NCBI GenBank assembly: GCA_945901225.1
Contig: CAMDKR010000004.1
Span: 1-40,222 of the forward strand
From: Bordetella parapertussis
GTDB taxonomy: Bacteria; Pseudomonadota; Gammaproteobacteria; Burkholderiales; Burkholderiaceae_C
Direction of reading: 5' to 3'
Length of the DNA stretch: 40,222 bases
This document shows positions 26,151 through 26,887 of the stretch, one piece after another. Each line of letters opens with the position of its first letter. Position 1 is the first letter of the stretch. A program made the position numbers and the translations under genes. Below the pieces are notes generated by a model. It had not been told where the DNA came from. It searched no databases and worked only from the letters and a program-made list of their open reading frames with translations.

Positions 26151-26678
26151 TCAATATTCATTGCGACCAGAAGAGCCGCTGCTGTTGCGAGACCCGCCGC
26201 CGCCATAAGGACTGCGGAAGTTGCCGTCGTTGCCACCAGCAGCACCTTCGCGACGACCGCCGCCACCGTAACCACCGCCGCCTTCACGGCGACCACCGCC
26301 ACCACCGTAGCCGCCGCCACCTTCGCGACCGCCGCCACCGTAACCGCCGCCGCCGCCTTCACGACCGCCGCCACCATAACCGCCACCGCCACCACCGTAA
26401 CCACCGCCGCCACTGCGCGGAGGACGTGGTTCCATGGGTCGTGCTTCATTGACCACCAAGCTTCGACCACCAAGAGGTTGGCCATTCATACCGTTAATGG
26501 CTGCTTGGGCTTCGGCATCGCTGCCCATCTCAACAAAGCCAAAGCCTTTGGAGCGACCGGTGTCGCGTTCCATCATGACCTTGGCGCTGGTGACAGTGCC
26601 AAATTGACCAAAAGATTGTTCCAAGTCGCCATCGCGCACGGAATATGGCAGATTGCCGATGTACAGTTTGTTGCCCAT
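26151..26678 (-). CDS. Glycine-rich RRM RNA-binding protein
   Basis: A 175-residue protein with one RNA recognition motif (residues 1-82) and a glycine-rich tail. RNP2 is KLYIGNLPY and RNP1 is KGFGFVEM; aromatic residues at the RNA face are kept. The tail is made of GGGGYGG and GGREGG/RREGG blocks up to about residue 150, then a Ser/Asn/Arg end. Such proteins in cyanobacteria and proteobacteria are often cold-induced RNA chaperones. The DNA of the tail is a GC-rich imperfect repeat that explains long open frames on the other strand. The Shine-Dalgarno GGAG lies inside a predicted hairpin. Confidence 0.93.
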   Translation of the reverse strand: MGNKLYIGNLPYSVRDGDLEQSFGQFGTVTSAKVMMERDTGRSKGFGFVEMGSDAEAQAAINGMNGQPLGGRSLVVNEARPMEPRPPRSGGGGYGGGGGGYGGGGREGGGGGYGGGGREGGGGYGGGGGRREGGGGYGGGGRREGAAGGNDGNFRSPYGGGGSRNSSGSSGRNEY

Positions 26679-26681
26679 TCA

Positions 26682-26720
26682 GGGACTCCATAAAAACAAA
26701 TAAAAAAGCGACGGAGTCCC
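26682..26720 (-). promoter_or_regulatory. Leader hairpin sequestering the RBS of the RRM gene
   Basis: In the mRNA, GGGACTCC (26720-26713) pairs perfectly over 8 bases with GGAGTCCC (26689-26682), leaving a 23-base U-rich loop. The second arm contains the GGAG ribosome-binding site, and the ATG follows 3 bases later. The fold would block initiation unless opened by temperature or by a protein. A possible -10 CATAAT at 26815-26810 (minus strand) would give a leader of about 125 bases, as seen for cold-shock genes. Confidence 0.65.
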
Positions 26721-26887
26721 GATTGCACCTGTCCACGAAAGTCAAGAAGCGAAACTAACCTATCACCACAAGCCGTGCGCACACCCAAGCGCATCACACA
26801 GTCCGGACCATTATGAGACAGATTTGCTGAATAAAACCAAGTGTTTATCCTCAATTTGCTACTTTAAAGGTCAAAAAACCACAAAAA

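Follow-up and report, generated by a model that had tools for sequence, protein, structure and literature searches.

The RRM gene and the layout of its leader

The window, a 40,222-nt stretch of Bordetella parapertussis DNA (assembly GCA_945901225.1, contig CAMDKR010000004.1), carries on its reverse strand a gene for an RRM glycine-rich RNA-binding protein, whose ATG lies at position 26678. Small glycine-rich RRM proteins are present in many bacteria. The gene product matches Pfam RRM_1 (E 8.7e-22), scores 105.7 bits against NCBIfam NF058537 Rbp_regulator (cut-off 100), and carries a glycine-rich tail. One copy of the gene was found in its own genome, which is 77% complete. The 60 best solved structures listed as relatives of the RRM domain include those of the U-binding RRMs HuC/HuD, Sxl, PUF60, and TIA-1; because the top relative is a poly(A)-binding protein and the U-binders are also among these 60, the binding preference of the domain is not firm from sequence.

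Upstream of the gene, two segments of the mRNA pair perfectly over a 23-nt loop in which 16 bases are U, forming a hairpin termed P3. The Shine-Dalgarno GGAG in its 3′ arm sits 7 nt 5′ of the ATG. The preliminary description had put exactly such an element here: an 8-base perfect stem with GGAG in the 3′ arm and a 23-base loop made mostly of U. The stem in the window is lengthened to 10 pairs by one G-U and one U-A pair. With the 15 nt next to the ATG left unchanged and the 60 nt upstream shuffled at constant dinucleotide composition, 10 of 3000 shuffles equaled or exceeded the observed GGAG stem score. The stretch 26640–26815 as a whole is of ordinary stability (z 0.11), and the case is therefore built on conservation and comparison rather than on energy.

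Comparison with related sequences indicates that the hairpin belongs to a larger conserved leader, ∼125 nt long, that extends from the predicted promoter to the ATG. Read from the 5′ end, the leaders share a near-constant CATAAT, then the stem-loop P1, which varies in sequence, box 1 with the consensus GGUGAUCGGUCAGUUUCG, a stretch that differs among leaders, and finally P3, whose loop has AUCGC at its 5′ side. P1, box 1, the conserved AUCGC of the loop, and a complementarity between box and loop go beyond the preliminary description. Of 121 non-redundant leaders, 101 have the hexamer [CG]ATAAT 70–150 nt upstream of the loop motif (median 105 nt), versus 1 of 121 letter-shuffled ones, a result that lends good support to the leader of about 125 bases that had been predicted from a possible CATAAT −10 element. 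A simple sigma-70 scan of the window found no full promoter match.

Table 1. Coordinates of the RRM gene and of its leader elements in the window
Feature	Position	Strand	Basis
Gene for the RRM glycine-rich RNA-binding protein (175 aa)	26151..26678	-	Pfam RRM_1 and NCBIfam NF058537
P3 3′ arm GGAGTCCC, holding the Shine-Dalgarno GGAG	26682..26689	-	Sequence and alignment
P3 loop, 23 nt, U-rich; begins GTCGC (consensus AUCGC, conserved)	26690..26712	-	Sequence and alignment
P3 5′ arm GGGACTCC	26713..26720	-	Sequence and relatives' alignments
P2, variable stretch from box 1 to P3	26721..26749	-	Leader comparison
Box 1 GGTGATAGGTTAGTTTCG (consensus GGUGAUCGGUCAGUUUCG)	26750..26767	-	Conservation in leaders
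P1, 5′ stem-loop, fast sequence change with pairing kept	26771..26804	-	Folding and half-exchange test
−10 element CATAAT of the predicted promoter	26810..26815	-	Sequence and comparison

P1 folds better than its shuffles, with a mean z of −2.2 and z above 0 in 2% of the 111 leaders (of 155) that have a recognizable −10 element and box. Its half-pair score is 18.2 in native leaders versus 12.4 ± 0.3 when 5′ and 3′ halves are exchanged among 108 leaders. P1 covaries strongly and is therefore an RNA feature; the window's own copy is a weak example (z −0.67).

In box 1, UUUCG is conserved at 86–91% per column among 123 leaders aligned with GUG and a GUCAG-like pentamer as anchors, percentages which, like those for AUCGC, are inflated wherever the pattern served as the anchor and its letters were selected for. 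The pattern GATNGGTYAGTTTCG gave 26 matches in 41 genomes of the genus, 25 at RRM leaders and one at a contig edge; its reversed control gave 5 in the same genomes. The edge match (genome G002, contig C27, 39–53) probably marks a gene cut off by the assembly, and an RRM protein search of G002 gave nothing. P2 is nearly absent in a short-leader group (L097, L098, L100–L109). The P3 loop following AUCGC contains 60% U (113 leaders), compared with 30% at −140 to −60. A conserved upstream reading frame beginning in box 1 was rejected, L001 and L098 having an in-frame TAG.

Downstream of the ATG, codons 2–4 (GGC AAC AAA; 26667–26675) show few synonymous changes among relatives, with GGC kept in 149/153 and AAA in 136/152, and perhaps reflect a constraint on the start region or a piece of the leader. 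The possibility that the loop motif pairs within the coding sequence, with GCGAU at Arg-Asp codons, was also considered and discarded: GAU is used there in 34/155 cases versus 125/346 at other Asp codons and is thus not favored.

Distribution of the leader and conservation of P3

The first comparison set consisted of L001 and 109 related loci, 80 with named records (L002–L081) and 29 from genomes of the same genus (L082–L110). It holds 115 recognized RRM starts, and CC(A/G)TCGC occurs within 85 nt upstream of 85 of them; the 30 starts without it belong mainly to more distant RRM genes, with altered copies in L042 and L099. From 65 of 67 hairpins (set A1; L024 and L043 left out) a covariance model of P3, termed R1, was built. 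In the genome of the window R1 found one real match and one chance match (L112, E 4.97). At E ≤ 0.1 it matched 141 of 250 genomes of the family, representing 84 of 141 sampled genera, a few of the matches being weak. A total of 141 loci were inspected (L111, L113–L192, and L222–L281; the chance match L112 aside, and L155 and L164 being one place), and 139 of them, tandem copies included, lie 5′ of an RRM gene. The remaining two, L191 (E 0.045) and L192 (E 0.080), are weak matches that sit at genes of other kinds and were attributed to chance; one more weak match, in genome G116 (E 0.081), falls outside the inspected loci. In many loci with tandem RRM paralogs (for example L002, L115, and L137) each paralog has its own copy of the leader. 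The P3 arms and AUCGC recur across the family. A sample at the level of the order gave an RRM match in 35 of 150 genomes, and inspection by eye of eight upstream stretches outside the family (L196–L201, L205, L206) revealed no such leader.

Thirty-one loci of more distant RRM genes (Rubrivivax-type and further) were excluded from both larger leader collections. One group (L049, L052, L053, L058–L064, two of them named Rubrivivax) has a different leader with an analogous hairpin near the start, made of other sequence. The 5′ arm there mostly contains AGCUCC, and GAAGCUCC-ACAUGG occurs in several; the start-site arm is GGAGCUUC in L060 (8 bp) and GGGGCU in L049 and L058, and pairing is poor or elsewhere in L052 and L064. 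In genus g113 (L173 and L178) a GGACUCC-GUCGC hairpin is kept ∼60 nt 5′ of the RRM start and, at that distance upstream of the ATG, cannot hide it.

Pairing over the start site was analyzed in 155 leaders. The anchor was found in 148 of these and 7 were dropped; as the collection kept only leaders with a loop-like motif (191/206), AUCGC is partly selected in this analysis and in the others drawn from the same collection (P1, box 1, codons, segment swaps, 87-leader energies, and the earlier register sample); free of such selection, the motif is present at the 85 of 115 RRM starts given above. In 120 of the 148, the arm region forms a contiguous stem of at least 6 bp with the sequence just upstream of the start, and the best stem misses GGAG in a few. 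The score of the stem covering the Shine-Dalgarno averages 18.2 in native leaders versus 13.3 in shuffled ones, and 114 of the 148 exceed their own shuffled mean.

Base-pair covariation was assessed in the closer 65-sequence set (A1) and in a 104-sequence set (A2; 111 leaders chosen, five without the loop motif in range skipped, L024 and the first L032 gene omitted). The arms are near-invariant in A1, where 92.7% of P3 cells are paired versus 92.5% in shuffles (132/500 as high) and no covariation signal was found. In A2, 87.4% of cells are paired versus 86.6 ± 0.3% in shuffles (8/500 as high), and a shift of the partner by 1–3 columns lowers pairing to 36–65%. In A2, the two C-G pairs formed by the leading GG of the Shine-Dalgarno are kept in 96/104 and 93/104 sequences. 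Eight A2 cells are changed on both sides versus 4.1 in shuffles (26/500 as high), a count that is not evidence by itself since both-sided changes are more numerous at the +3 shift than in the true register (12 versus 1 in the 65-sequence set, 20 versus 8 in the 104-sequence set). The A2 covariation score and number of pair types fall inside the shuffled range (93/500 and 154/500, respectively), and exchange among 31 leaders with a non-consensus arm gave p 0.088. One P3 pair is broken in 14/65 and 21/104 sequences, largely of the GGGACCCC type from Polaromonas and relatives.

Both arms are changed with AUCGC kept in several leaders, namely the second copy of L019 (GGGCUCC/GGAGCCC), L184, L185, and L042 (ACGGAC/GUCCGU, shifted), and, as a shorter case, L180; in such lineages the start region is still able to pair. 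P3 is mostly invariant, and covariation within it is weak. The arms are conserved in relatives, and the lack of conservation that the preliminary description named as a refutation is therefore not seen; the compensatory changes that it sought are weak in P3 and absent from the closer set. Conserved pairing over the Shine-Dalgarno, which defines a translational sequestering leader, was found with the exception of L173 and L178 and their displaced hairpin. The comparison of relatives' leaders therefore supports well the earlier proposal that the ribosome-binding site is sequestered.

Complementarity between box 1 and the P3 loop

The loop motif GTCGCT in the window is complementary to GGTGAT of box 1, three of the pairs being G-U. 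Across leaders, the box GUG hexamer and the loop hexamer can be matched in two registers, GGUGAU with AUCGCU or GCGGUG with CAUCGC. Both parts were recognizable in 187 of 233 distinct leaders (the other 46 having no recognized loop motif, 9, or box, 37), and 172 of the 187 form 6/6 pairs, G-U included, in one of the registers. Full complementarity occurs in 77 of 4960 background windows taken 20–60 nt 5′ of the loop, a count that may include the box itself. The registers compensate for each other: when AU finds no partner in the two bases that follow GUG, CGC can usually pair with the three that precede it, and vice versa. Fisher p values are 1e-10 for the 187 leaders, 1.4e-3 for 93, and 0.026 for 52 less redundant ones; a smaller, earlier sample was not significant at its stricter cuts (p 0.11 with 39 leaders, 0.25 with 27). 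The leaders are not independent and support is therefore considered moderate. The complementarity suggests either a pseudoknot or an anti-sequestor that competes with P3. In L186 and L187 (genus g95) a normal box accompanies a loop with GUGGU, which counts against a box–loop helix.

Compared with versions into which the box of a different leader was swapped, native box-to-loop segments have the better fold in 80/123 leaders (p 9.2e-6), and compared with arm-swapped versions, in 76/123 (p 0.0035); RNAfold places at least 8 box–arm pairs in 109 of 123 native segments versus 63% of shuffled boxes; in both tests, as in the 87-leader energy test below, some boxes were anchored on the wrong GUG, the window's own among them in the swap test. 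No covariation was found for the 7-bp inner helix of the box–arm pairing. Two extended helices are complementary and were rejected, a longer anti-sequestor AGUUUCG with CGGGACU (exchange test p 0.997 in 82 odd rows, 0.87 in 131) and GGUC with GAC(U/C), whose signal was gone after redundancy removal.

Candidate mechanisms and related systems

Folding predictions point to the closed form as the default. For the full window leader, the predicted probability that GGAG is unpaired stays at or below 0.005 from 5 to 37°C. When the box–loop pairing with P3 excluded and P3 itself were each forced in 87 leaders, the closed form was better by a median of 5.4–5.6 kcal/mol over 5–37°C; for the window, computed separately from this set, the gap was 8.8–10.0 kcal/mol in favor of the closed form. 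The open form wins in 9/87 leaders at 5°C and 5/87 at 37°C. With a closed default and a near-constant gap, co-transcriptional folding, a protein, or a ligand would have to open the leader or choose its form.

The sequence comparisons are best accommodated, tentatively and with considerable room for the rivals below, by a cis-acting translational switch of the RRM gene family in which the RRM protein, when abundant, favors the closed state and limits its own synthesis. In the P3 state the ribosome-binding site would be shut. AUCGC of the P3 loop may pair with box 1 alongside P3, in an H-type pseudoknot that would hold the leader closed; alternatively, the same pairing may compete with P3 as an anti-sequestor, formed first during transcription, so that the site stays open. 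Abundant RRM protein would bind single-stranded parts of the leader, the U-rich P3 loop and/or box 1, and the bound protein would favor the closed state, thereby limiting its own synthesis. Autoregulation by the RRM protein is a plausible first hypothesis and best fits the near-exclusive linkage to RRM genes; the copy per paralog seen in tandem loci, the conserved boxes, the U-rich loop, and the glycine-rich tail argue for it as well. A more far-reaching version, a new Burkholderiales family of protein-sensing leaders in which a pseudoknot or a bistable box–loop switch lets each RRM protein gauge its own level through a copy per paralog, is possible and on balance unlikely.

Ribosomal proteins S15 and S4 offer a parallel, as these RNA-binding proteins stabilize a start-site pseudoknot in their own mRNA. 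The proposed logic is alike; the pseudoknot in the present leader is deduced from complementarity only. Another parallel is Bacteroides RbpB, a bacterial RRM protein whose own mRNA contains an RbpB site, with possible autoregulation implied (PMC11697453); the available part of that description includes no structured leader of the present type. RbpB prefers AU-rich sequence, often around ribosome-binding sites, and, as the same part of the source reports, its addition without sRNA left translation of the single mRNA tested unchanged, which counts against autoregulation (PMC11697453).

The main rival to autoregulation is a cold-induced kinetic switch of the cspA type, in which box 1 would pair with the P3 5′ arm and loop once these are made, the open form persisting in the cold and refolding into the closed one in the warm. 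The frequent box–arm pairs and the advantage of native over box-swapped and arm-swapped segments accord with it, as does L004, in which the forced open form is modeled as better below ∼15°C (−1.2 kcal/mol at 5°C, +2.5 at 37°C) and the probability that the Shine-Dalgarno arm is unpaired is 0.45 at 5°C and 0.01 at 37°C; among the leaders printed, L004 alone opens on cooling. A switch of this kind nevertheless seems unlikely, since the closed form is favored at all temperatures from 5 to 37°C (by energies, which leave kinetics aside), shuffled boxes often reach 8 pairs too, the inner helix does not covary, and the thermophile Tepidicella keeps the leader with a 10-bp stem. A link to cold does exist for cyanobacterial RRM genes, which are tied to the cold response via the 5′ UTR (PMC9333190; papers cited in PMC6091082). 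The accessible part of PMC9333190 describes conserved 5′-UTR boxes for cold response in the rbp genes (rbpA1, rbp1), a precedent for conserved leader boxes at RRM genes that is likened here by description and not by box sequence.

A different signal, a small molecule, an sRNA, or another protein (Hfq, CsrA, or a ribosome-associated one), would make the RRM gene only the output of the switch. Compact conserved boxes beside a Shine-Dalgarno helix do resemble translational riboswitches, and the constancy of box 1 and AUCGC exceeds what pairing in P3 calls for. We nonetheless judge such a signal improbable: all inspected loci except two weak matches are at RRM genes, which would be unusual for a metabolite switch, and the leader matches no Rfam family. 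It is still less probable that the leader serves mainly mRNA stability or ribosome standby with the Shine-Dalgarno hairpin secondary. P1 at the 5′ end looks like a stabilizing stem-loop and the g113 hairpin persists away from the ATG; against this stand the retention of C-G pairing at the leading GG of the Shine-Dalgarno and the ability of the start region to pair even where both arms have changed.

A simple RNA thermometer, in which warming melts P3 and exposes the site, has the usual layout of a hairpin over the Shine-Dalgarno and an AUCGCU that includes UCGCU and so fits the ROSE motif, and is very improbable, since the isolated window hairpin (−14.7 kcal/mol at 37°C) is predicted to leave GGAG unpaired with a probability of at most 0.0002 up to 42°C, the singly mismatched hairpin of the Polaromonas type stays constant at 0.25 from 4 to 42°C, GGAG is paired with CUCC, and a thermometer would not need the conserved loop. 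The start of the window leader is thus not predicted to open in the physiological range, as an RNA thermometer in general would do; melting as the switch is unlikely according to these models, and the temperature-sensitive switch offered in the preliminary description is not supported in its heat-opened form. In fourU thermometers UUUU pairs with the Shine-Dalgarno, whereas here GGAG pairs with CUCC; in ROSE thermometers UYGCU with a bulged G lies opposite the Shine-Dalgarno, whereas here UCGCU is in the loop and gives no Rfam match. The present leader resembles ROSE, fourU, and the cspA leader in that leader structure governs access to the Shine-Dalgarno, and differs in how the Shine-Dalgarno is paired and in a predicted stability too high for melting. 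P3 stability at 37°C varies among leaders, from −18.1 kcal/mol in that of the thermophile Tepidicella (L030, 10 bp) through −16.1 in the window to −10.6 to −12.4 in mismatched Polaromonas leaders (L012, L013, L026); it is possibly tuned to growth temperature, on anecdotal and modeled grounds.

Among known RNAs, no Rfam 15 family matched in the window at the gathering score. The leader itself, searched against Rfam 15 with E up to 10, gave only two weak matches, DLEU2_5 and mir-1954, far under their cut-offs. Chlorobi-RRM is a conserved candidate cis-regulatory RNA 5′ of RRM genes. Its model (RF01697) found no match in the leader and two chance-level matches elsewhere in the same genome, both with E 9.93 and under the cut-off. 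A table in PMC2864571 enters Chlorobi-RRM as RF01697, with 'y' for RNA, 'y' for cis-reg, and Chlorobi as its source; the two are alike as candidate cis-regulatory RNAs before RRM genes, and unlike in that Chlorobi-RRM comes from another phylum and its model misses the leader. The same 2010 candidate-RNA list includes, without an Rfam accession, Burkholderiales-1, a candidate RNA from the same order as the present leader (PMC2864571), and the table entry, by which alone the two are set side by side, neither shows nor excludes their identity. No description of the leader was found in the open-licence literature, which is weak evidence of absence given partial coverage.

To our knowledge, the RNA targets and regulation of small glycine-rich RRM proteins are little known outside cyanobacteria and Bacteroides. 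Tied to the RRM gene and matched at E ≤ 0.1 in 84 of the 141 genera sampled from one family (a few of the matches weak), the leader provides a concrete candidate RNA ligand, and comes with naturally varying sequences and a mutational scheme for the study of these proteins.

Twelve related loci searched against Rfam 15 at the gathering score gave four matches, all outside the leaders. Manganese and SAM_alpha riboswitches of Rfam lie near the RRM leader on the opposite strand at L002:411-596, L004:1075-1253, L037:1146-1221, and L189:1217-1292, and probably serve the adjacent genes.
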